Assembly: GCF_014224355.1 (NCBI RefSeq)
Contig: NZ_VNWP01000003.1
Location: 124,001 to 188,000, forward strand
DNA length: 64,000 nt
Origin: Synechococcus sp. BSA11S
GTDB taxonomy: Bacteria > Cyanobacteriota > Cyanobacteriia > PCC-6307 > Cyanobiaceae
Direction of reading: 5' to 3'
The notes beneath the pieces were generated by a model, which had not been told where the DNA came from, did no database searches, and was given only the letters and a program-made list of their open reading frames with translations. The position numbers and the translations under genes are program-made. Shown piece after piece: positions 18,051 through 31,272 of the stretch. Position 1 is the stretch's first letter. Each line of letters opens with the position of its first letter.

Positions 18051-19697
<1,647 letters not shown>

Positions 19698-19735: not shown

Positions 19736-20143
19736 ATGACTCTCAACCTGCGTGTTCTGGCCCCCGACCAGAGCGTCTTTGACGGGACAGCCGACGAGGT
19801 GATCCTCCCCAGCACCTCCGGTCAGGTGGGGATCCTCACCGGCCACGTGTCCATGCTCACGGCCTTGGATGTGGGCGTGATGCGCCTGCGGGCCGGCAAG
19901 GACTGGACCAGCATCGCCCTGATGGGTGGATTTGCCGAAGTGGAGGCCAATGAAGTCACGGTGCTGGTGAACGGCGCCGAACTCGGCTCCGGCATTGATG
20001 CCGGCAAGGCCGAGCAGGAGGTCGAGAAGGCCGAGCAGAAAGCGGCAGGATTCGAAGGTCAACCCCCCAGCACCGAGAAGGTGAAGGCCATGCAGGACCT
20101 GGCACGCTCCCGCGCCAGGCTGCAGGCCACCCGCGTCAGTTGA
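19736..20143 (+). CDS. atpC: ATP synthase F1 subunit epsilon
   Basis: 135 residues (atpE in cyanobacterial naming). MTLNLRVLAPDQSVFDGTAD, VILPSTSGQVGILTGHVSML and GGFAEVEANEVTVLVNGAE form the N-terminal beta sandwich. A helical hairpin follows from about residue 88. The subunit couples gamma rotation to c-ring attachment and inhibits ATP hydrolysis. It is 38 bases downstream of the beta gene, together forming the beta-epsilon operon. Confidence 0.96.
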   Translation: MTLNLRVLAPDQSVFDGTADEVILPSTSGQVGILTGHVSMLTALDVGVMRLRAGKDWTSIALMGGFAEVEANEVTVLVNGAELGSGIDAGKAEQEVEKAEQKAAGFEGQPPSTEKVKAMQDLARSRARLQATRVS

Positions 20144-20159
20144 GGTCGGTGGGCTCTGC

Positions 20160-20855
20160 ATGAGCCTTCGTTTCTTCCTCGACTCGGCTGATCCCGAGGA
20201 CTGGGCCACCTGGATGCCCTGTGGCCTGTTCCACGGGATCACCACCAATCCCACCCTGCTCCGCCAGGCAGGGCAGCCCTGCAGGATCGACGCCCTGGCT
20301 TCCCTCAGCCGGCGTGCCCTTGATCTTGGATGCCAGGAGCTGCATCTCCAGGCCTGGGGGCGTGAGTCCAGCGCGCTGAGCGATTGCGCACAGGCCCTGG
20401 CTGAGCTCGACCCTGGACGGATCACGGTCAAGGTTCCCGTGACCAGAGTCGGCGCCAGAGCGGCGGTGACCCTGATCGGCCAGGGCATTCCCCTCACATT
20501 CACCGCCTGCTACGAGGCGCCCCAGGTGCTGGTGGCGGCAGCCCTCGGTGCCCGCTACATCGCCCCCTACCTCGGTCGGATCAATGACCTGGGGCGGGAT
20601 GGCCACCAGGAACTGATCACAATGCAGAAATGCGTCGATCGCACTGGATCGAGTCTGAGGCTGTTGGTGGCCAGCCTGCGGTCCCCGGGTGATCTCAGCC
20701 GCCTGGCGGCAGCAGGCCTGACCACCTTCACCATTTCGCCGAAGCTGGCTGAGGAGCTGTTCAGCTGCCAAGCCACCGAAGCGGCGGCGGCACGCTTCGA
20801 AGCGGAAGCCAGCCACAAGCCAGTCGACAGCGGCCTGGCCTCCAGGGATCGATAG
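20160..20855 (+). CDS. Transaldolase-family (fructose-6-phosphate aldolase-like) protein
   Basis: 231 residues of a TIM-barrel aldolase. FFLDSADPEDW and GITTNPTLL at the N terminus, ITVKVPVT near residue 82 with the probable Schiff-base lysine, FTACYEAPQVLVAAALGARY near 120 and YLGRINDLGRDG match the short transaldolase/FSA family (class I aldolases of the pentose phosphate pathway). The C-terminal 25 residues are variable. It follows the epsilon gene by 16 bases on the same strand. The exact sugar substrate is unknown; a full-length transaldolase would be expected elsewhere in the genome. Confidence 0.85.
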   Translation: MSLRFFLDSADPEDWATWMPCGLFHGITTNPTLLRQAGQPCRIDALASLSRRALDLGCQELHLQAWGRESSALSDCAQALAELDPGRITVKVPVTRVGARAAVTLIGQGIPLTFTACYEAPQVLVAAALGARYIAPYLGRINDLGRDGHQELITMQKCVDRTGSSLRLLVASLRSPGDLSRLAAAGLTTFTISPKLAEELFSCQATEAAAARFEAEASHKPVDSGLASRDR

Positions 20856-20903
20856 ATTCGCGCCCATGGGTACAGCAGTGAACACAGCACTCCCGGTGGG
20901 CCG

Positions 20904-22034
20904 GTGAAGGGCCAAGGGCGTGAACTCGGACTGCAGCTCCGGGCCTGGCATGAGGCCGACACACCGGGGCTCACCAACGGAAAGGTCATGGCCAACCGGC
21001 TCGTCGACCTGCTCGGGGCCGAGGAGGGCCTCAAGGGCCCCGTGCGCGATCTGGCTGGCCAGCCGCTTTTCCTGCGCGCACTCAGGGACAGCGGGGCGGG
21101 CCGCGAAACCTCCGTGCGGCTGCTGGCCCAGCAGCTCGGAAGCACCTACGCCCCGGCGGTGCTGGTGGAGCTTCTCGACCTCCTCGAAGCGGCCACAGGT
21201 GTGGCGGTCTCCCTGGCGCCGGACCCCAAGACCAACGCACCGGGCTCAACTCCCGGAGTCGCGCATGGTCCCTGGGGCCTGGCCCTGCGGGAGTCGCTGC
21301 AGGCCATGGGTCCCGGCCTGGCCGTGGCGGCCGGGGCTGCTCTGGTGCTGCGCTGGCTCAGCGGCGAACTCGACCACTGGCTGTTCAAGTCGTGGGACTG
21401 GCAGGGCTGGCTGGTGCTGGCACTGACCCTGGCCCTGCTGCAGGCCCTCAGCCTTGGCCCCCTGAAGTGCGCGCGACGCCAGTGGCCCCTGGAGCAGGCC
21501 GACGCCACCGAACCCCACCAGGCCTGGCGCTGGATCAGCGCCCCCTGGATCCACCACAGCCATGGCGAAGCGGTGGTGAATGTGCTGCTGCTGCTGCTGA
21601 TCCTGCGGGCTCCGTCGCCACTGCCCCTGCCCGATGTGGTGCTGCGTTACATGCTCACCAGCCTGGCCACCACGGCTCTGGCACTGCTGGTGGCGATGCG
21701 GCGCACCTCAGAGCGCCGCTGGGATGGGGCCGCAGGGGCGGTCAGTGCCCTGATCGGCCTGGCGGCCGCCTCAAGCCTGGTCCACTGGCGTTCCCTGGCC
21801 TTCAGCCTCGGTCCGATCGAGATTCCTGCCTGGGTGTTGCTGCTGGTGTACGGCGCCCTGCAGCTGGGCTGGCAGCTGCCCCGCCAGAGCGAGCACGACG
21901 AGAGCAGGCCCCTCGATCGGTTGCTCAGCAGCCAGTGGTGGTGGGGGCTGGTCCTGGGAGTGGGCTGGGCGGTGTACAGCCGGCTGGAAACCCTGCTGCA
22001 GCTGGCTCTGCGCGCCAGGGACAGCGGCGGCTGA
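20904..22034 (+). CDS. Rhomboid-like membrane protein, probably protease-inactive
   Basis: 376 residues. An all-helical soluble N-terminal domain (about 1-100) is followed by six or seven transmembrane segments from about residue 135. The pattern WRWISAPWIHHSHGEAVVNVL (208-228) resembles rhomboid helix L1/TM2 (W..P.lH.s..H...N), and RRWDGAAGAVSALIGLAAA (271-289) aligns with the GASGAxxxL motif in which Ser is the nucleophile. Here the position is Ala277, and no catalytic His is evident in the last helix, so proteolysis seems lost. The assignment to the rhomboid fold is by pattern only. The following gene, the FHA-PBP, is convergent with stops 26 bases apart. Confidence 0.6.
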   Translation: MKGQGRELGLQLRAWHEADTPGLTNGKVMANRLVDLLGAEEGLKGPVRDLAGQPLFLRALRDSGAGRETSVRLLAQQLGSTYAPAVLVELLDLLEAATGVAVSLAPDPKTNAPGSTPGVAHGPWGLALRESLQAMGPGLAVAAGAALVLRWLSGELDHWLFKSWDWQGWLVLALTLALLQALSLGPLKCARRQWPLEQADATEPHQAWRWISAPWIHHSHGEAVVNVLLLLLILRAPSPLPLPDVVLRYMLTSLATTALALLVAMRRTSERRWDGAAGAVSALIGLAAASSLVHWRSLAFSLGPIEIPAWVLLLVYGALQLGWQLPRQSEHDESRPLDRLLSSQWWWGLVLGVGWAVYSRLETLLQLALRARDSGG

Positions 22035-22060: not shown

Positions 22061-24361
22061 TCAGCTCCGGCCCAGGCCAGATCCGACCGCCGCCATGTAG
22101 CGCCCCCAGAGTTCGGCCGCCAGAGCACCGCTGGCCGCTTCGGCCGGTCGGTTGTCGTCGTTGCCCATCCAGATGGCAGTGAGGATCTCCAGGGTCGGGG
22201 AGTAACCGATGAACAGCACGTCCACGCCCCTGTCGGTGGTGCCGGTCTTTCCTCGGGCATCGGCCACCACGGCAGCCGCCTGCCCCGTCCCACTGCGCAC
22301 CACCCGTTCCAGCAGATCATCCATCACCGCAGCGTCCTCCCCGCGCAGCAGCTGACGCGGCTGCTCACCGATGGGGGTGGTCACGCCGCGATCCGGACAG
22401 GAGGGGAGGCTGTAGATCGAGCGGCAGATGCCCAGGTCGTAGATGCGGGTCACGCCGTGCATGGGCACGCTGCGGCCGCCGTTGGCCACCACGGCATAGG
22501 CCCGGGCCATCTCATAGAGGAGGGTTTCACGGCCGCCCAGCATGGTGTTGAAGTCGGCGTCGAGGGGGGTGCTGATCCCCAGCTGACGGGCCTTGCGCAC
22601 CACCTCCTTCAGGCCGGCCTTCTCGGCCAGGCGCAGGGCCACCACGTTCTCGGAATCGGCGAAGCCGCTGGCCATGGTGATGCTGCCGCCGCCCTGGCGA
22701 CAGCCCGCCACGTAGGCCAGGGGAGCACACGAGACGGGCTGATCGGGGCTGGCGCCGGCCTCGAGCGCCGCCAGGTAGGGGAAGAGCTTGAAGGTGGAGC
22801 CGGGCTGGCGCATGGCCTGCACCCGGTCAAAGCTGGAACGGGAATAGTCACCGCCACCCACATAGGCCAGGATCTCGCCGCTGCGGAAATTGAGGGAGAT
22901 CAGAGCCCCCTGGGTCAGTCCGACACGGGCTGCCGGCCCCTCGAGGAAGCGCTGCAACTGCTGCTGGGCCAGCTGCTGCAGCTTGGGATCGATCGTGCTC
23001 ACCACGTGGTAGTTGCCGCCTGAAGTCTTCTCCGAGAGGTTGAGCGCAAAGCGGGTGCCCTCCAGTTCCCCGAGCACGTAGTCGCTGAAGAAGGGATAGC
23101 TGGAGAAACCGGAGTCGCGGCAGGCCGAGGGATCGATGTTCAGGGGCCGCCTCTGGGCGTCGATCAGCGGCTGATCGCCCAGGTAGCCCTGTTCGTGCAT
23201 CAGCTTGAGCACCAGGTCGCGGCGCTCCCTCCCGGCGGTGGGGTCCTTGGCATTGCACGGGCTGTAACCGTTGGGGCTGGGCAGCAGCCCCACCAGGAAA
23301 GCCGCCTGATCCACATCCAGATCACTGGCCGACGTGCGGAAGTAGAGACGGGAGGCCTGCTCGAAGCCATCGGTGCCGAGGCCGAGATGGGCCCGGTCCA
23401 GATACATCTTGAGAATCTGATTCTTGCTGTAGCCCACCTCCAGCTGCAGGGCCACCCACAGCTCCCGCAGCTTGCGGCTGAGGCTGTAGTCGATGCCCAC
23501 CTCCGGGTAATAGATGCGGGCCACCTGCTGGGTGAGCCCACTGCCGCCACCGCTGCCCAGCAGGGCCGAGCGCAGGGTGCCGAACAGATCCACCCCGCTG
23601 TTCCAGCCGAAGCGTGCCTCTTCCGAGGCCATCAGGGCCTGGCGCAGGTGGAGCGGATAGGCCTGCAGGGACGGCAGAGCCGTGGCCGAGCCCTCCCTGG
23701 CGTCGATCTGCTGACCCGATGCCGAGACGATCTTGACCGGACCGGAGATCAGGCGAATGCGGGAGCCGCCACCGACCGAAGAGACCAGCAGCAGACCGCC
23801 CACCAGCAGGCCCGACCCCAGCAGGCTGGCCAGGCCGAGCAGGTGAACCGCCTGCTCCAGCGGACTGCGGGGGTTCAGGTAGCGCAGGCGAGGGGCAGCG
23901 CCCTTGAGGGGAGAGCCGAGCTGCACCTGGTCGCCGTGGCGCAGGCGGATGGCCCGGATGCGGCGGTCGCGGTGGAAAAGGCCGTTGGCGGAGTTGAAAT
24001 CCTCAAGGGCAAAGTCGCGCTCATCGGGGCGCGGCTTCTCCAGGATGGCGTGCACCCGGCTGAGGCTCTCCGCCTCCAGCGGCAGTTCGCAGGCGGGATC
24101 GCGGCCGATGCGGTAGCGGCCCTCCCCCAGCACGGTGCGACTGAGCCGCCGCTCCCCCAGCCACAGCTCGGCCACGGCCTGGCGCACCAGCAGCGGGCGC
24201 CAGGCCGAACGGACGGCGCCAGGGCGGCTTTCCAGCGGCCCCTGGCTCAAGGAAGCGAGGAAACGGCGCCAGGCGGCGCGGTGGCCATTGGTCGGCGGCT
24301 CCTCGGAGATGCGGCCCGAGCCCTGCGCAACGTCGCTCTCAGGAACGGACGGGTCGACCAT
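22061..24361 (-). CDS. Bifunctional penicillin-binding protein (GT51 + transpeptidase) with N-terminal FHA domain
   Basis: 766 residues. An FHA domain spans about 66-150 (YRIGRDP 83-89, SRVHA 101-105, NSANG 123-127). A transmembrane helix covers about 173-197. The GT51 glycosyltransferase domain has ASEEARFGWNSGVD near 245-258 and GGSGLTQQVAR at 272-282. The penicillin-binding transpeptidase has STFK at 522-525, SEN at 570-572 and KTGTT at 705-709. It polymerises and cross-links peptidoglycan outside the membrane, while the FHA domain sits in the cytosol and should bind a phosphothreonine protein. It diverges by 58 bases from the kinase/phosphatase operon at 24420, a likely source of that signal. 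Confidence 0.93.
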   Translation of the reverse strand: MVDPSVPESDVAQGSGRISEEPPTNGHRAAWRRFLASLSQGPLESRPGAVRSAWRPLLVRQAVAELWLGERRLSRTVLGEGRYRIGRDPACELPLEAESLSRVHAILEKPRPDERDFALEDFNSANGLFHRDRRIRAIRLRHGDQVQLGSPLKGAAPRLRYLNPRSPLEQAVHLLGLASLLGSGLLVGGLLLVSSVGGGSRIRLISGPVKIVSASGQQIDAREGSATALPSLQAYPLHLRQALMASEEARFGWNSGVDLFGTLRSALLGSGGGSGLTQQVARIYYPEVGIDYSLSRKLRELWVALQLEVGYSKNQILKMYLDRAHLGLGTDGFEQASRLYFRTSASDLDVDQAAFLVGLLPSPNGYSPCNAKDPTAGRERRDLVLKLMHEQGYLGDQPLIDAQRRPLNIDPSACRDSGFSSYPFFSDYVLGELEGTRFALNLSEKTSGGNYHVVSTIDPKLQQLAQQQLQRFLEGPAARVGLTQGALISLNFRSGEILAYVGGGDYSRSSFDRVQAMRQPGSTFKLFPYLAALEAGASPDQPVSCAPLAYVAGCRQGGGSITMASGFADSENVVALRLAEKAGLKEVVRKARQLGISTPLDADFNTMLGGRETLLYEMARAYAVVANGGRSVPMHGVTRIYDLGICRSIYSLPSCPDRGVTTPIGEQPRQLLRGEDAAVMDDLLERVVRSGTGQAAAVVADARGKTGTTDRGVDVLFIGYSPTLEILTAIWMGNDDNRPAEAASGALAAELWGRYMAAVGSGLGRS

Positions 24362-24419
24362 GCGGGGGGTGAACAGGCGTGGCCCGGGGATACGCTAAAC
24401 GCATCGATCTCCTCTCCCC

Positions 24420-24695
24420 GTGCTGCGCCAGCGCGATCCCTGGGAGCCCTTCCGGCTCTGGCTGGCCATCACGATCGGGCTTTATGCCGTGCGGGCCAGC
24501 TTCGCCGCCACCTGGGTGGGGGCGATCCCGGGCTGGGTGCTCCTGGTGATGGTGCTGGTGGCCCTGCTTCTGGCCAGCAAGGCCCTGCTCTTTCCTGGCC
24601 GGGTCACGCCCTTCCGCTCAGGCGATGGCGGCTGGTGGAGTGACATCCAGGACGACTGGCACCTCTGGTGGCGCCGCCGCCGTGGAGGGCCATGA
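24420..24695 (+). CDS. Small two-helix membrane protein at head of phospho-signalling operon
   Basis: 91 residues from a GTG. Two hydrophobic segments, about 12-30 (RLWLAITIGLYAVRASFAA) and 36-58, are followed by a Trp- and Arg-rich tail (GGWWSDIQDDWHLWWRRRR). No family is recognised. Its stop overlaps the ATG of the FHA gene by four bases, so it belongs to the same operon. It faces the FHA-PBP gene with only 58 bases between the starts, enough for a shared promoter region. Confidence 0.65.
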   Translation: MLRQRDPWEPFRLWLAITIGLYAVRASFAATWVGAIPGWVLLVMVLVALLLASKALLFPGRVTPFRSGDGGWWSDIQDDWHLWWRRRRGGP

Positions 24696-25432
24696 CCCCG
24701 CCTCAGGCCCGGCTGCGGCTGCGGGATCAACCCGGGAAGGTGGCCCGGCTCGATCCGTCCCGGCCTCTCACCATCGGGCGCGAGGGCAACAACCGCCTCT
24801 GCATGCCCGATCAGCCCGGGCTCTCTCCCCACCACGCCGTGGTCCGCCACTCCAGCAGCCAGCGCAGCTGGGTGGTGTGCGACTGGCAGAGCGCCGATGG
24901 CACCTTTCTCAGAGGGGAACGCCTCCAGCAGTGCAGGCCCCTGGCCCATGGCGACGAGATCCGGCTGGGAGTCAACGGTCCGGCGCTGATCTTCGAGCTG
25001 GCTGCACCTGCGGGAGCGGCCAGCGAGCCAGCGGCGGAGGGGAATGCTCAGCGAGCCCACACTCCCCGCAGGGAGTCGGCACGGGGTTCGGCTCCGGTGG
25101 TGACGAGCCTCGACATCGGCGGCCAGCAGATCGCCCTGGATCAGATCCGATCGGCCACGGTGCAGAGCCTGCCCCGCCATCCGCACATCTTCAGCTGGTG
25201 GCTGCTGGTCTGCCTGGGGGGCCTGCTGCTGTTGCCATTCCCGCTCCTGTTCTGGCCCCTGGAGGTGGCGGCCCTGGTCGGCTGGATCCTGCTGGGCTCC
25301 CGCAAGGACCACACCCTGACGGTGGTGCTTCGCGACGGCCGCGCCCAGCGCCGCAGCTTCGCCAACCGACTGACGGCCCTCTCCCACCGCAATGGGATCC
25401 GCAAGGCCATCGGCCAGAGTCTGGAGGCCTGA
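24692..25432 (+). CDS. FHA-domain membrane protein
   Basis: 246 residues. The N-terminal FHA domain (about 1-105) has LTIGREGNN at 27-34, SPHHAVV at 45-51 and SADGTFLRG at 68-75, the phosphothreonine-binding loops. A low-complexity linker to residue 140 is followed by a segment (SLDIGGQQIALDQIRSATVQ) and a hydrophobic hairpin (about 163-200: WWLLVCLGGLLLLPF and LEVAALVGWILLG). The C terminus is basic (HRNGIRKAIGQ). It probably docks kinase-modified partners at the membrane. The start ATG overlaps the upstream gene; the kinase follows 18 bases later. Confidence 0.85.
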   Translation: MTPPQARLRLRDQPGKVARLDPSRPLTIGREGNNRLCMPDQPGLSPHHAVVRHSSSQRSWVVCDWQSADGTFLRGERLQQCRPLAHGDEIRLGVNGPALIFELAAPAGAASEPAAEGNAQRAHTPRRESARGSAPVVTSLDIGGQQIALDQIRSATVQSLPRHPHIFSWWLLVCLGGLLLLPFPLLFWPLEVAALVGWILLGSRKDHTLTVVLRDGRAQRRSFANRLTALSHRNGIRKAIGQSLEA

Positions 25433-25450
25433 GCCCCCAGACAACCCACC

Positions 25451-26785
25451 GTGACCTGGATCCTGCCGGAAGGCGCCTGCCTCGATCTGGAGGGAATCCC
25501 CGGCCCGGTGCATGTGCTTCACGGGCTGGGGGGCGGCACCCAGGGCCAGGTGTTCGAGGTGGAGGTGGCCAGCGAGCGTCTGGCCCTGAAGTGGTACCTG
25601 CCGGCGTGCATCGCCCGCGATCCCCATCTGGAGCGGCGCCTGGGCGAAAGCATCCGGGCCACTACCCCCAGCGACGCCTTCCTCTGGCCGCTGGCCCTGG
25701 TGAAGCCCGGCCCCGGAACGGTGCCGTTGCTTCGCAGCAGGGATCCCGGCTTCGGCTACCTGATGGAGCTGCGCCCGCCGGGCTTCGTGGGAGCCCATGA
25801 GCACGTCGGCGGGCATCTGGCCATCAGCCTGCTGCAGGTGCTGCGGGCCAGCTTCTTCCTGGCCGAGGCCTTTCACGCCCTGCACCTCAAGGGCCTCTGT
25901 TACAAGGACATCTCCCTGGGCAACCTGTTCCTGGAGCCCTCCAGCGGCCGCATCCTGATCTGCGACAACGACAACGTGGATGTCGATGGGCGGGATCTGG
26001 GCGCCGTGCTGGGCACCCCTGGATTCATGGCACCGGAGATCCTGATGGGCCTGGCCCGACCGGGGGCCAACAGTGATCTGTTCTCTCTGGCCGTGCTGAT
26101 CTTCCGGCTGCTCACACGCCACGACCCGCTGCGGGGTCGCAGGGAACTGGCGATCCGTTGCCTGGATGAGCCCGCCCGCCGCCGGCTCTACGGAGAAGAC
26201 CCGCTGTTCATCTTCGACCCGGTCGATCCGAGCAACAGGCCCGATCCGATCGAGCACGCCGCCGCCCTGATCACCTGGCCGATCTACCCCGAGCCGATCA
26301 AGCAGTTGTTCGAGCAGACCTTCGGGGCCGGCCTGCAGGCTCCCCAGCGACGGGCGCTCACCGGCCAGTGGATGACGGCCCTGGCCGCGGCCCTCGACCA
26401 GCGTCAGCTGTGCGCCCACTGCGGTCAGGAAACGTTCCCTGCCCCCAGCGATCCTGGCCCCCTGTGCTGGAGCTGCGGCTGCCCATTGCCGCACCCGGCC
26501 AGGCTGAAACTGCCCCATGGCCTGGTGACGGCGGCGGCCGGCAACGCTCTGTATCCCCACCATTTCGACCGGCTGCTTCCCCTGCAGCTGAAAGCACCGC
26601 TGGCACAGGTGGAGGCCCATCCCAGCCAGGCCACTCTGCTGGGACTGCGCAACCTGAGCGGCCAGACCTGGCGGGCCGAGCTCAGCAATGGCAACCGGAT
26701 GGCGGTGGAACCGGGACAAACCTGTAATCTCTCGCCACTGGTGCGGCTCACCACACCGGCCGGGGCGGTCGAGCTGCAGTCCTGA
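25451..26785 (+). CDS. TerY-P-triad type protein kinase with zinc ribbon
   Basis: 444 residues. A protein kinase-like domain covers about 20-315: glycine loop GLGGGTQGQVF (25-35), ATP-binding Lys47 in LALKWY, catalytic loop YKDISLGNLFL (Asp153, Asn158) and APE-like GTPGFMAPE (188-196). The usual HRD is YKD and DFG is DND (172-174). A four-cysteine zinc ribbon follows (CAHC 321-324, CWSC 339-342), then about 90 residues of beta-rich tail. This architecture matches kinases of the TerY-P triad described by the Aravind group: kinase, PP2C phosphatase and TerY-like vWA. The other two partners follow directly downstream. Confidence 0.87.
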   Translation: MTWILPEGACLDLEGIPGPVHVLHGLGGGTQGQVFEVEVASERLALKWYLPACIARDPHLERRLGESIRATTPSDAFLWPLALVKPGPGTVPLLRSRDPGFGYLMELRPPGFVGAHEHVGGHLAISLLQVLRASFFLAEAFHALHLKGLCYKDISLGNLFLEPSSGRILICDNDNVDVDGRDLGAVLGTPGFMAPEILMGLARPGANSDLFSLAVLIFRLLTRHDPLRGRRELAIRCLDEPARRRLYGEDPLFIFDPVDPSNRPDPIEHAAALITWPIYPEPIKQLFEQTFGAGLQAPQRRALTGQWMTALAAALDQRQLCAHCGQETFPAPSDPGPLCWSCGCPLPHPARLKLPHGLVTAAAGNALYPHHFDRLLPLQLKAPLAQVEAHPSQATLLGLRNLSGQTWRAELSNGNRMAVEPGQTCNLSPLVRLTTPAGAVELQS

Positions 26786-26808
26786 GCCTCCCGCGGAGCC
26801 CAGATCCG

Positions 26809-27591
26809 ATGCCCTTTCCGAACGTCAGGCTCACCAACAGGCCGCTGCACTTCATCTACATCTGTGATTGCTCCGGCTCGATGGCGGCCCAGGGCAAGAT
26901 CCAGGCACTCAACCAGGCGATTCGTCAGTCGCTCCCGGGGATGGCCGAGGTGGCTCGCCAGAACCCAGAAGCGCGTGTTCTGGTCAGGGCTGTGAGCTTT
27001 GCCGACCGGGCCTGCTGGCACCTGGAGAAGCCCACTGCCGTGCAGCAGCTGCAGTGGCTGGACCTGCAGGCCGGAGGCATCACAGCCATGGGTGAGGCCC
27101 TGGAGCTGGTGGCCGGGGTACTGCAGTCGCCCCCGATGGAGGAGCGGGCCCTGCCACCGGTGCTGGTGCTGATCTCCGACGGCCAGCCCACCGACGACTT
27201 CGACGCGGGCCTGGCCAGCCTGATGCGCCAGCCCTGGGCCCAGAAGGCGGTGCGCCTGGCGATCGCCATGGGGCACGACGCCGACACCGAGGTGCTGCAG
27301 CAGTTCATCGGCACCGAGCCCGGCGGTGGCCTGCCCTCCGGAGAAATCCCCGGTGCCAGCGGGCAGACGCCCCTGCACCGCTCGGGCCGCTCACCTCGCC
27401 GCCCTCTTCAGGCCAGCAACGCCACCTCCCTGGCCCAGTACATCCAGTGGGCCTCCACAGCCGTGGTGGGTGCCGCCTCGATGCCCATCAGCCGCATGAC
27501 AGGCTCGGAGCACCAGGCCAACATCCCCCTACCGGATCTGCCTCCCACCCTGATGGATCCCATCGACGACGTCGGTCCCCTGGTGTGGTGA
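26809..27591 (+). CDS. TerY-like von Willebrand factor A domain protein
   Basis: 260 residues. A vWA domain begins almost at the N terminus (RPLHFIYICDCSGSM). The MIDAS metal site DCSGS is at residues 20-24, the threonine in GGITAMGEAL and the aspartate in LISDGQPTDD. TerY proteins are metal-dependent adaptors that pair with a kinase and a PP2C phosphatase. The C-terminal 80 residues are Ser/Pro-rich and end DDVGPLVW, perhaps a phosphorylation target. It lies 23 bases after the kinase and overlaps the phosphatase start (GTGA). Confidence 0.9.
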   Translation: MPFPNVRLTNRPLHFIYICDCSGSMAAQGKIQALNQAIRQSLPGMAEVARQNPEARVLVRAVSFADRACWHLEKPTAVQQLQWLDLQAGGITAMGEALELVAGVLQSPPMEERALPPVLVLISDGQPTDDFDAGLASLMRQPWAQKAVRLAIAMGHDADTEVLQQFIGTEPGGGLPSGEIPGASGQTPLHRSGRSPRRPLQASNATSLAQYIQWASTAVVGAASMPISRMTGSEHQANIPLPDLPPTLMDPIDDVGPLVW

Positions 27592-28967
27592 CTGGCTGGA
27601 GGCCACCACTGCGGGCAAGGCACATCGGTGCCGCCCACCAACGCCAGGGCCGCCCCTGCCAGGACGCGGTGGCCTCAGCCCAGTGCCACAGCCGTGACCA
27701 CCAGCCGGTGCAGGTGATGGCATTGGCCGATGGCCATGGCGGTGAACGCTACCCCTACAGCGATGTGGGGAGCACCCTGGCCTGCGAACAGGCTCTGCTG
27801 GCCGTGGAGGAGCATCTGCGCGAATGCGCGCTGCTGGGCGCCCAGGCACCGGGGGCCAACGAGTGGGCCAGGTGGCTGGAAGCCGAACTCCCCCAACGGA
27901 TTCACAGCCGCTGGCTGGCTGAGGTGCTCGACCACTGGCAGCGGCAGACGGCTCTGGCCCCCGCCCAGGCTGTCGCTGCTGAAGCCCCAGGGTCCGAGGA
28001 CCAGGTGCCACTGCGCTACGGCACCACCCTGGGGCTGGTGGTGATGGCGCCGGGGTGGTGGGGCTACACCGGTCTGGGCGACTGGGACCTGGTGCAGGTG
28101 GGGCCCGGGGGGGAGGCCGTGCTTCTGAGCGAGGAGGCCCCTCAGCAGGGAGGTGGCGAGGCCACCGGCAGCCTCTGTCTGGAGCAGGCTCCCAGGATGT
28201 TCCGCAGCGGACTGAAGCCGATCGAGCACCGGGGGGCAGCCTTCGGACTGCTGCTGAGCACCGATGGCATCCGCAAGTCCTGTGCCACCGACACGGATTT
28301 TCTGGCGCTGGCCGCCCATCTGATCGCCACCCCAGGCACCGGAGCCAGCGACGCGCTGGCCGCGAACCTCAAGCAGATCACCAGCGAGGGCAGCGGCGAC
28401 GATGTGTCGGTGGCGATGGCCCTGCACGGCACGCTGGGGTCAACCCAGCCGGGGCCAGCCCAGGTCGCAGCCCTCCACAGGAAGGCTGGCGACGATCAAC
28501 CTCGCGGAGCAGCCGCTCACTCCGGCGCCACTGCGCGGCTGGAGGCCCTGCGGAGCCATCCCGGCCCCGCCCTGGCAGCTGTGGCCCTGCTGGTGGTCGC
28601 CGCGGGACTGGGCGCCCGCTGGTTGTGGGTGAAGCCACGGAGCCATGCCCCGCAGCCGGTGGCCACGGCCGTGCGCCGCCAGATCAACCAGCTTTGCCGG
28701 GGCCCCAGCGTCGCCATCGCCGGTACCCTCAGCAGCCGTCGCAGCCAGTTCACCGGTCTGCGCGAGGGCCGCCTGCGGGCGCTGTCGTTGCTGGACGCCT
28801 CCAACCAGGACCCCCTCGGGGCCCTGATCGCCAGCAGCTTCGATCCCGCCACGGGTGGACTGGTGCAGGGGGAGGCCCTCAGGGCCCTCAACCTCTGCCC
28901 ACCCCTCGAGGCCACCCTGCAGCTGCAGTGGCAACCCAAGACCATCCCTGCCCTCCCCGCGCGATGA
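27588..28967 (+). CDS. PP2C-family protein phosphatase with C-terminal membrane anchor
   Basis: 459 residues from the GTG at 27588, which overlaps the vWA stop by four bases. PP2C metal-binding motifs are present: QGRPCQDAVA near 20-29, ALADGHGGERY at 45-55, GLGDWDLV near 165, LSTDGI and GSGDDVSVAMA near 275. A transmembrane helix follows at about 325-345 (ALAAVALLVVAAGLGARWLW), then a 110-residue domain with SRRSQFTGLREGR. This is the phosphatase partner of the upstream kinase; the anchor places the reaction at a membrane. Its stop overlaps the next gene by four bases. Confidence 0.9.
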   Translation: MTGWRPPLRARHIGAAHQRQGRPCQDAVASAQCHSRDHQPVQVMALADGHGGERYPYSDVGSTLACEQALLAVEEHLRECALLGAQAPGANEWARWLEAELPQRIHSRWLAEVLDHWQRQTALAPAQAVAAEAPGSEDQVPLRYGTTLGLVVMAPGWWGYTGLGDWDLVQVGPGGEAVLLSEEAPQQGGGEATGSLCLEQAPRMFRSGLKPIEHRGAAFGLLLSTDGIRKSCATDTDFLALAAHLIATPGTGASDALAANLKQITSEGSGDDVSVAMALHGTLGSTQPGPAQVAALHRKAGDDQPRGAAAHSGATARLEALRSHPGPALAAVALLVVAAGLGARWLWVKPRSHAPQPVATAVRRQINQLCRGPSVAIAGTLSSRRSQFTGLREGRLRALSLLDASNQDPLGALIASSFDPATGGLVQGEALRALNLCPPLEATLQLQWQPKTIPALPAR

Positions 28968-29917
28968 ACGACCACCAGCTCGGAGCCGCCCTCAGGCAGC
29001 AGGTGCTCAGCGACCTCCGGCGTGGTCGAGGCACTGAGGGCCGTCGCCTGCAGGCGGTCGCGGGCGACCTCTGCGGCGAGGGACAGAACAACCTGCTTCC
29101 GGCCCTGCGCCATCTGGTGATGTCGGCCGCCTTCGCCAGCGCCGCCAGCCAGAACCCACCCCTCTCCGAGGCGCGGCTGCAGCAACGGCTGATGCAGGAA
29201 GTCGAGGAGGTGTTCACCCCTGCCATCTGCCGGCGCATGGAGAGCGTGGTGGGAGGGCTGCTCGATCTGCCAGCCAAGGGCACCTCAACCCCAACAGCAA
29301 CCAAGCCAGCAGCCCCTGCTCCTGCCCCTGCAGCCGCAACACCAGTCCCGGCGCCGGCCAGCCGAGGCGGCAACAGCGTCCTGCTGGGCTTCCTCGCCTT
29401 CCTCACGGGCGGCCTGGCGGTCGCCCTGGTGGGGGCCGTGATGCTGTTGCGCTATTCCCCCCAGGGCTCCGTTGAGAACCCTTCCGCGACCAGACCCAGC
29501 ACACCGCCGCCGCCGGTGGCCCGACCAACCACGCCGCCCGAGGAACCAAGCCTGCCCACGCCGGAGCCCCCCACCACGCCACTGCCTTCGGCCGACACCG
29601 ACCTGGCCATCGCCAGCATCCGGGGGCTCTACGACGCCCTGAACACCAGGGCCTATGACCAGGCCCGGCAGTTCTTCGCCGGCGCCGCAGGCGATCAGTT
29701 CGATCCTGCCTTCTTCAACCAGTTCGAGCGGGTGAGCGTGGAGGATCTGCGCGAAACCGCTCAGGAAGGATCAACCGTCACCTTGCAGGGCCTGGTGACG
29801 TTCGTCTATCCCGATGGCTCCTCCCAGACCGAGAGCCGCAGTTTCACCGTCGACACCGCCACAATTCCAGCCCTGATCACCGCCAGCGAATTCGCAGGGG
29901 TGATCAGGGCCCGCTAG
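28964..29917 (+). CDS. Membrane-anchored protein of unknown function, last gene of the kinase operon
   Basis: 317 residues in four parts. An all-helical N-terminal domain (1-102) is followed by an Ala/Pro linker (103-135), one transmembrane helix (about 138-162, LLGFLAFLTGGLAVALVGAVM) and a long Pro/Thr-rich stretch (170-210). The C-terminal domain (about 211-317) resembles NTF2/SnoaL-like folds by pattern (IRGLYDALNTRAYDQARQFF, then beta strands LQGLVTFVYPDG). No enzymatic motif is seen. The outward-facing C-terminal domain could sense something outside while the N-terminal domain meets the kinase system; that is inference. The ATG overlaps the phosphatase stop. Confidence 0.75.
   Translation: MNDHQLGAALRQQVLSDLRRGRGTEGRRLQAVAGDLCGEGQNNLLPALRHLVMSAAFASAASQNPPLSEARLQQRLMQEVEEVFTPAICRRMESVVGGLLDLPAKGTSTPTATKPAAPAPAPAAATPVPAPASRGGNSVLLGFLAFLTGGLAVALVGAVMLLRYSPQGSVENPSATRPSTPPPPVARPTTPPEEPSLPTPEPPTTPLPSADTDLAIASIRGLYDALNTRAYDQARQFFAGAAGDQFDPAFFNQFERVSVEDLRETAQEGSTVTLQGLVTFVYPDGSSQTESRSFTVDTATIPALITASEFAGVIRAR

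Positions 29918-29947: not shown

Positions 29948-31272
<1,325 letters not shown>

Follow-up and report, generated by a model that had tools for sequence, protein, structure and literature searches.

A TerY-P phosphorylation cassette encoded opposite an FHA-bearing penicillin-binding protein in Synechococcus and related cyanobacteria

TerY-P triads combine a TerY-type vWA protein, a PP2C phosphatase and a kinase with a zinc ribbon (PMC11090510; this and the other papers cited by PMC number are represented by excerpts). They are known by the company they keep, namely Ter proteins, restriction systems and secretion, and the excerpted TerY-P literature names no demonstrated phosphorylation target. 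What might such a triad act on in Synechococcus sp. BSA11S, where a stretch of 64,000 nucleotides (contig NZ_VNWP01000003.1, positions 124,001 to 188,000; hereafter the window) holds one in a six-gene operon? We find a known TerY-P triad with a new class of partner. Judged from sequence, an intact kinase, vWA protein, PP2C, FHA adaptor and small membrane protein are encoded side by side; facing them on the opposite strand is a gene for a class A penicillin-binding protein (PBP) with an FHA domain of its own, distinct from a widespread FHA-PBP paralogue. The composition of this cassette is conserved, its members co-occur across genomes, and the set stands at several genomic addresses. We propose, with moderate confidence, that it is a portable TerY-P phosphorylation module controlling envelope synthesis through this dedicated PBP. 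Among the literature matches listed there was no description of the cassette, and an earlier mention of its cyanobacterial form is possible.

Composition of the cassette

The six forward-strand genes reported in a preliminary description of this DNA are all present (Table 1), and Pfam recognizes FHA (PF00498, E 3.7e-14), Pkinase (PF00069, E 1.9e-12), VWA (PF00092, E 2.8e-7) and PP2C_2 (PF13672, E 1e-25) among their products. No Pfam family was found for the small protein or for the last protein, and none of the six products scored above the NCBIfam cut-offs. ATGA overlaps join the small-protein gene to the FHA gene (given an FHA start at ATG 24692) and the PP2C gene to the last gene, a GTGA overlap joins TerY to PP2C, and the kinase gene is flanked by gaps of 18 nt and 23 nt; the six genes would form one transcript. 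The PBP gene is divergent from the operon, and its product matches the transglycosylase (E 6.6e-40), transpeptidase (E 5.8e-24) and FHA (E 2.6e-14) families, with the FHA domain placed ahead of the transmembrane (TM) segment. No sigma-70-like match was found in the 58-bp region between the two; promoter and terminator scans did not rise above shuffles.

By composition, the core can be classed as a TerY-P triad from its motifs. K47, D153, N158, D172 and the cysteines C321, C324, C339 and C342 of the kinase are invariant in 21 aligned sequences, and the kinase motifs and the CxxC...CWxC that follows the kinase domain are conserved in 52 aligned rows. The metal-ion-dependent adhesion site (MIDAS) of TerY (D20, S22, S24, T92, D124) is invariant in 19 sequences and kept in 52 rows, and the PP2C residues D49-G50, D227-G228 and D272-D273 are invariant in 24 sequences, with the motifs kept in 49 rows. 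Identity to the window copy is 56–87% for the kinase, 67–93% for TerY and 42–69% for PP2C. The predicted structure of the phosphatase shows a PP2C fold plus a separate helical C-terminal part. The fold matches PP2Cs including cyanobacterial tPphA and PstP, and these matches track the catalytic domain; a structure search gave no match of its own for the C-terminal part.

The cassette resembles known TerY-P triads in having all three core proteins adjacent, with intact motifs and a kinase that ends in CxxC...CxxC. Distant triads with a related kinase (28–39% identity) occur at four loci labelled Bacteroidetes, Verrucomicrobia, Bryobacterales and Methylacidiphilales (L158, L160, L161, L162), where the order is TerY-PP2C-kinase, whereas the cassette has kinase-TerY-PP2C. 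Unlike known triads, the cassette lacks TerD and adds the small membrane protein, the FHA adaptor and the FHA-PBP; in addition, its PP2C has a TM anchor and its TerY a PLPDLPPTxxD tail.

According to hydropathy, by which all TM segments were called, the small protein, the FHA protein, the PP2C and the last protein have TM segments, and the kinase and TerY have none. Four of the six operon proteins, rather than the two of the preliminary description, are thus membrane-anchored, in agreement with the membrane placement that it had assigned to the module. The outer domains discussed below depend on a membrane orientation that we infer. The six-gene boundary of the preliminary description was too tight, since the divergent FHA-PBP gene and a rhomboid-like gene, up1, belong to the unit as well.

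Table 1. Features of the cassette and its surroundings, with positions in the window
Feature	Positions	Strand	Remarks
Small membrane protein gene (sm)	24420..24695	+	91 residues, no family; TM by hydropathy
FHA adaptor gene	24692..25432	+	FHA domain and C-terminal membrane region; alternative start GTG 24668
Kinase gene	25451..26785	+	Ser/Thr kinase with C-terminal zinc ribbon; catalytic motifs conserved
TerY gene	26809..27591	+	TerY-type vWA, intact MIDAS, conserved tail PLPDLPPTxxDP
TerY codons 247-250 (T-L-M-D)	27547..27558	+	Candidate phosphothreonine/FHA-ligand motif
PP2C gene	27588..28967	+	TM 329-347, helical C-terminal part past the TM; start GTG 27585 or 27588, residue numbers from 27585
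Last gene	28964..29917	+	Helical N-terminal domain, TM 144-162, NTF2-like C-terminal domain 205-317
Divergent intergenic region	24362..24419		58 bp, between PBP and small-protein genes
Class A PBP gene	22061..24361	-	FHA (83-149), TM (175-193), transglycosylase, transpeptidase; start codon uncertain
up1	20904..22034	+	N-terminal helical domain, then rhomboid-like membrane domain (PF01694, E 4e-7); convergent with PBP gene
up2	20136..20951	-	No Pfam family
ATP-synthase-family gene	18060..19697
PSRP3 gene	29948..30520

Co-occurrence and genomic addresses

An order-level draw gave 299 genomes (G numbers), 52 of which contain the kinase (called carriers here) and 247 of which do not; the regions around the 52 carrier kinases were fetched, some ending at contig edges. 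A second set comprises 59 named cassette-type loci (loci of all kinds bear L numbers), 56 with at least 2.2 kb upstream and 52 with at least 2 kb downstream; named loci and G genomes are largely the same organisms. A PBP was counted as cassette-type at 310 bits or more with a 400-residue N-terminal query (hand-counted from ranked matches).

Kinase and TerY are found in the same 52 of 299 genomes, and TerY followed by PP2C lies 3' of the kinase on the same strand at 52 of the 52 named loci with enough downstream sequence, which bears out the earlier identification of the triad: a vWA protein with MIDAS, a PP2C and a zinc-ribbon kinase, all present, adjacent and inherited together. The cassette-type FHA-PBP is found in 51 genomes, all of them carriers, and in none of the 247 others; the only carrier without it is G005 (matching Prochlorococcus sp. 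MIT 0701, L132). The divergent PBP gene is present at 55 of the 56 named loci with enough upstream sequence (L132 is the exception), the small-protein and FHA genes at the same 55, and the PBP adjoins the kinase in 50 of 51 G genomes, the window's own excluded. The set is also present in the cultured strain Synechococcus sp. WH 5701 (L146). Similarly, up1 is found in 48 of 299 genomes, all carriers (0/247 others), and is missing from the carriers G005, G018, G143 and G282 (the G282 cassette is on an 8-kb contig). Because four carriers hold up1 away from the cassette (on another contig in G183, G112 and G283, and 1.2 Mb away in G030), its limitation to carriers goes beyond mere linkage. Fisher tests on co-occurrence gave tiny p values, which, with related genomes, are not probabilities of independence. 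Genes scattered in relatives, which would have spoken against the operon as first described, are not what we observed: the members co-occur and stay neighbors.

The cassette PBP is not an ordinary FHA-PBP. Below 310 bits the next matches of the query drop to 222 bits and belong to a separate FHA-PBP paralogue (41–47% identity among the matches listed), which occurs with or without the cassette, also in carriers (e.g. G000:C41). A tree built from 50 cassette PBPs and 20 paralogues has one split that parts the two sets; the supports on its two sides (0.60 and 1.0, midpoint-rooted) are unsafe to read singly. The window's own genome has a second FHA-PBP paralogue at G000:C41:71656-72783; the match spans one TGA, probably upstream of the true start.

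The block of the window is flanked by an ATP-synthase-family gene and a PSRP3 gene, which are 10.25 kb apart. This site is empty in 12 of 12 tested genomes without a cassette there (markers 0.56–1.41 kb apart), 10 of which have no kinase; the other two (G018, G143) hold the cassette elsewhere, PBP included (L074, L077). At L071 and L072 the PBP is still present, though the 19.9 kb of fetched sequence shows neither flank marker; the ATP-synthase marker is missing at L069 too, but there the contig breaks off on the opposite side. Since PBP-bearing cassettes also stand outside the ATP-synthase/PSRP3 site, several addresses hold the same genes as one unit, and a portable multi-gene unit larger than six genes is well supported. 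Carriers and non-carriers are mixed within genera (1 with and 23 without in g5, 3 and 7 in g15, and 24 and 4 in g8; hand counts of the genomes listed). A kinase search of a phylum-level draw (386 genomes) gave 9 strong matches, all in the window genome's family, and 6 weak ones (85–101 bits) in other families; five of the six weak kinases have a TerY-like or PP2C-like match nearby (L165-L169).

Some observations concern the surroundings. The gene up2, on the ATP-synthase side in the window, is found next to PSRP3's side of the cassette in many g8 loci. The G018 cassette has several genes for trypsin-like proteases on its flanks (L074 1507-17859); a frame in L074 that looked integrase-like on inspection had no Pfam match and was not used. 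L119 holds a cyanobacterial cassette and PSRP3 on a contig labelled as a Bifidobacterium breve metagenome-assembled genome, a mislabelled or contaminated bin.

Phosphothreonine readers, the TerY tail and accessory membrane proteins

The FHA domain of the cassette PBP keeps GRDP, SRVH and SANG, residues expected to bind phosphothreonine, and the paralogue largely keeps them too. The FHA adaptor of the preliminary description is present, but the better-conserved phosphothreonine reader is the PBP FHA: the key Arg of the adaptor is replaced in 9 of 46 rows, for which reason we rejected the adaptor as the main reader.

A candidate ligand is found in TerY. Its tail is otherwise variable, but of the 56 named cassette TerYs 55 share PLPDLPPT and the remaining one reads PLPELPPT. 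PPT is found in all 56 and PPTxxD in 52, the other four (L134, L137, L140, L142) reading PPTVIG; in the G-genome regions the counts are 51/51 and 49/51, respectively. PPTxxD is found in none of 10 other TerY-like matches (L158, L160, L161, L162, L166-L169). The eight tail codons vary synonymously, so the constraint acts on the protein, and a DNA-level signal was rejected on the same ground (the last residues, VW and the stop, overlap the PP2C start and were left out). Phosphothreonine with Asp at +3 is a preferred ligand of some FHA domains. The TerY tail looks like such a phosphothreonine ligand, and its docking to FHA is a testable guess.

The last protein is the least constant member of the operon: of the 52 fetched regions, which include some truncated at contig ends, 26 yield its outer domain at 99 bits or more. 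Its AlphaFold2 model (21 sequences) shows a helical N-terminal domain, a TM helix and an NTF2-like domain, the block of which has a predicted local distance difference test score of 88–98 from residue 211 onward. Residues 205-317 match NTF2-fold structures (best Z 12.8, root-mean-square deviation 2.5, 107 residues), and the predicted fold thus supports the possible NTF2-like outer domain first suggested from the translation. Particular kinship with the NTF2 domain of Enterococcus faecium PBP5 was rejected, as its match (Z 11.7) ties with ketosteroid isomerase-like folds (up to 12.8).

An iterated profile shows that a helical domain of about 100 residues opens both the last protein and up1 (20% identity between the window copies). 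The profile matched in 9 of 9 carriers and 1 of 11 non-carriers tested, in the latter weakly (E 5e-5, internal stop). At L077 and L135, where the cassette stands at another address, a third type of helical-domain protein follows the PBP on its strand. Two helical-domain proteins end in PLW, as EVPLW or EEPLW (L205 ORF 1477-2697; L199 ORF 1483-2229), and many cassette TerYs in GPLVW or GPVVW (TerY of the window ends at 27591); the likeness of these ends is either coincidence or a shared C-terminal signal. Of 44 aligned rows of up1, 30 carry the Ser of the rhomboid GxSG motif, 11 have Ala instead and 3 have Thr; the window copy has Ala. No conserved His of the sixth TM segment was found, no alignment column past 294 having His in more than half of the rows. 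The window up1 is therefore probably no protease but a pseudoprotease, its nucleophile Ser being replaced by Ala and a conserved His lacking.

Putative output of the module and competing explanations

In the mechanism that we propose, the soluble kinase would phosphorylate a threonine of a partner, and Thr247 of the conserved TerY tail is the likeliest candidate; PBP and adaptor would bind this phosphosite through their FHA domains, so that the module assembles at the membrane; docking would switch or position the wall synthase; and the membrane-anchored PP2C would erase the phosphate mark. The outer domains (PP2C C-terminus, NTF2-like protein and rhomboid-like protein) are candidate sensors of the envelope state. 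The write-erase-read logic of the first description is retained here, around a TerY-P core that is genuine by composition, and control of wall synthesis is the output that we infer.

PP2C and FHA genes share the mycobacterial pknA/pknB operon. This operon, with RodA and PbpA, resembles the cassette in joining a kinase, an FHA reader and a wall synthase (PMC3601408). Unlike it, the cassette has a vWA protein in its core, a synthase that is a class A PBP with its own FHA domain, and a kinase with a zinc ribbon in which hydropathy finds no TM segment, as opposed to a PknB-type transmembrane kinase. By analogy, the cassette may work like the mycobacterial kinase-FHA-wall arrangement without being a member of it. 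PppA, in the PpkA-PppA-Fha threonine phosphorylation pathway of the type VI secretion system (T6SS), is a PP2C. That pathway is alike in its set of kinase and FHA reader (PMC3953482); no T6SS genes were found among the window proteins put through Pfam, and no systematic T6SS search was made.

Several results weigh against control of wall synthesis through the PBP. Kinship among the genomes means that the counts are not independent, and the distance correlations over 48 loci (0.81 for kinase-PBP, 0.87 for kinase-TerY) could arise from vertical descent. The key Arg of the FHA adaptor is R in 37, K in 8 and C in 1 of the 46 lettered rows. MIT 0701 retains PPTxxD with no PBP or FHA adaptor at the locus, so the TerY tail need not serve the PBP; AG-412-I05 (L133) also retains it, but its contig stops too soon upstream to show whether the PBP or the adaptor is there. 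Conversely, L134, L137, L140 and L142 have kept the PBP and lost the Asp at +3; no helical-domain protein was found near these four loci, and L140 and L142 (matching G112 and G183) have up1 elsewhere. Lastly, the best PADLOC matches of the kinase are defence kinases, PD-T4-6 (E 2.6e-12) and mad6 (E 6.4e-12), through the generic kinase core only.

The triad may instead be a general controller of envelope or export functions, acting through any FHA-bearing envelope machine and having peptidoglycan synthesis as only one of several outputs, which we consider unlikely. At MIT 0701 (L132 2852-8872), an FHA-FHA-ABC2 exporter, a helical-domain protein and trypsin-like proteases adjoin kinase-TerY-PP2C, and in the carrier G038 (L207 5472-10398) a locus of protease, FHA-ABC exporter and helical-domain protein lies far from the cassette, with no kinase match in 19.9 kb. 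Mycobacteria have a pair of this kind, a kinase (PknF) with an FHA-bearing envelope machine (the FHA-ABC exporter Rv1747; PMC3908365), which the MIT 0701 locus resembles; the cassette differs in its TerY-P core and in having the PBP replace the exporter at 55 of 56 named loci. This frequency of the PBP as neighbor is also what speaks against a general controller, the ABC form having been seen in two genomes, without a frequency survey. These loci suggest a common core with interchangeable FHA-bearing envelope machines, and the exporter loci of MIT 0701 and G038 are a possible second output of the same switch.

Anti-phage defence, with the membrane and wall proteins as effectors, seems improbable to us but stays in contention. 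Activity of TerY-P systems has been reported against T7-like phages as well as in Pseudomonas aeruginosa (PMC7699616, PMC10889362), and tested anti-phage TerY-P kinases have an OB-fold tail in place of the zinc ribbon (PMC11090510). The zinc-ribbon cysteines are present in the tail of the window kinase, according to an alignment that leaves an added OB-fold possible. The PADLOC matches of the kinase (E around 1e-12) and of TerY (a weak match to PADLOC TerY, E 0.00079) and the sporadic presence of the cassette in g5 and g15 would fit defence, but the kinase match is to a generic core and the window surroundings are housekeeping genes (ATP synthase family, PSRP3, aminopeptidase P, NAD synthase), with the flank markers up3 and/or PSRP3 present in 45 of the 52 fetched regions (hand count). 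The kinase and TerY are also well conserved, PP2C less so, and to our knowledge a class A PBP is not a usual defence effector.

It is quite improbable that the PBP and the rhomboid-like gene are passengers of one insertion with no functional coupling. The block does look like one insertion at the ATP-synthase/PSRP3 site, where linkage alone would yield co-occurrence, but cassettes at other addresses keep the PBP (L071, L072, L074, L077), off-cassette up1 is found in carriers only, and none of the 247 non-carriers has a cassette-type PBP, so that the PBP was rejected as a mere syntenic neighbor. A Ter-type switch for metal or tellurite stress, as the relationship to TerY, the vWA MIDAS and the hypothesis of TerY-P triads as metal-sensing switches (PMC11090510) might suggest, can hardly be credited, since TerD (PF02342) is absent from 52 of 52 carrier genomes and detected in 2 of 14 controls, in keeping with the earlier remark that no TerD gene is present and against membership in a Ter system. 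Unlike the TerD-free cassette, the TerY-P-type locus of a cyanobacterium outside the family (L166 7594-13432) includes TerD, in two genes (E 2e-55 and 1e-60), next to two TerY-like genes.

Under wall control through the PBP, one may tentatively go further and see a horizontally portable cassette in which a peptidoglycan synthase travels with its controllers (kinase, phosphatase, scaffold and reader), the phosphorylated tail of the vWA scaffold being the ligand of the synthase FHA. TerY-P would then have a further use, besides those in Ter stress and phage defence, and the cassette would be an independently built cyanobacterial counterpart of the mycobacterial kinase-FHA-wall operon. A partner enzyme with its own reader domain makes the target question directly testable, with one synthase, one FHA domain and one candidate threonine. 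If the proposal is true, these cyanobacteria would have a dedicated Ser/Thr phospho-switch for wall synthesis that moves between genomic places as a unit.

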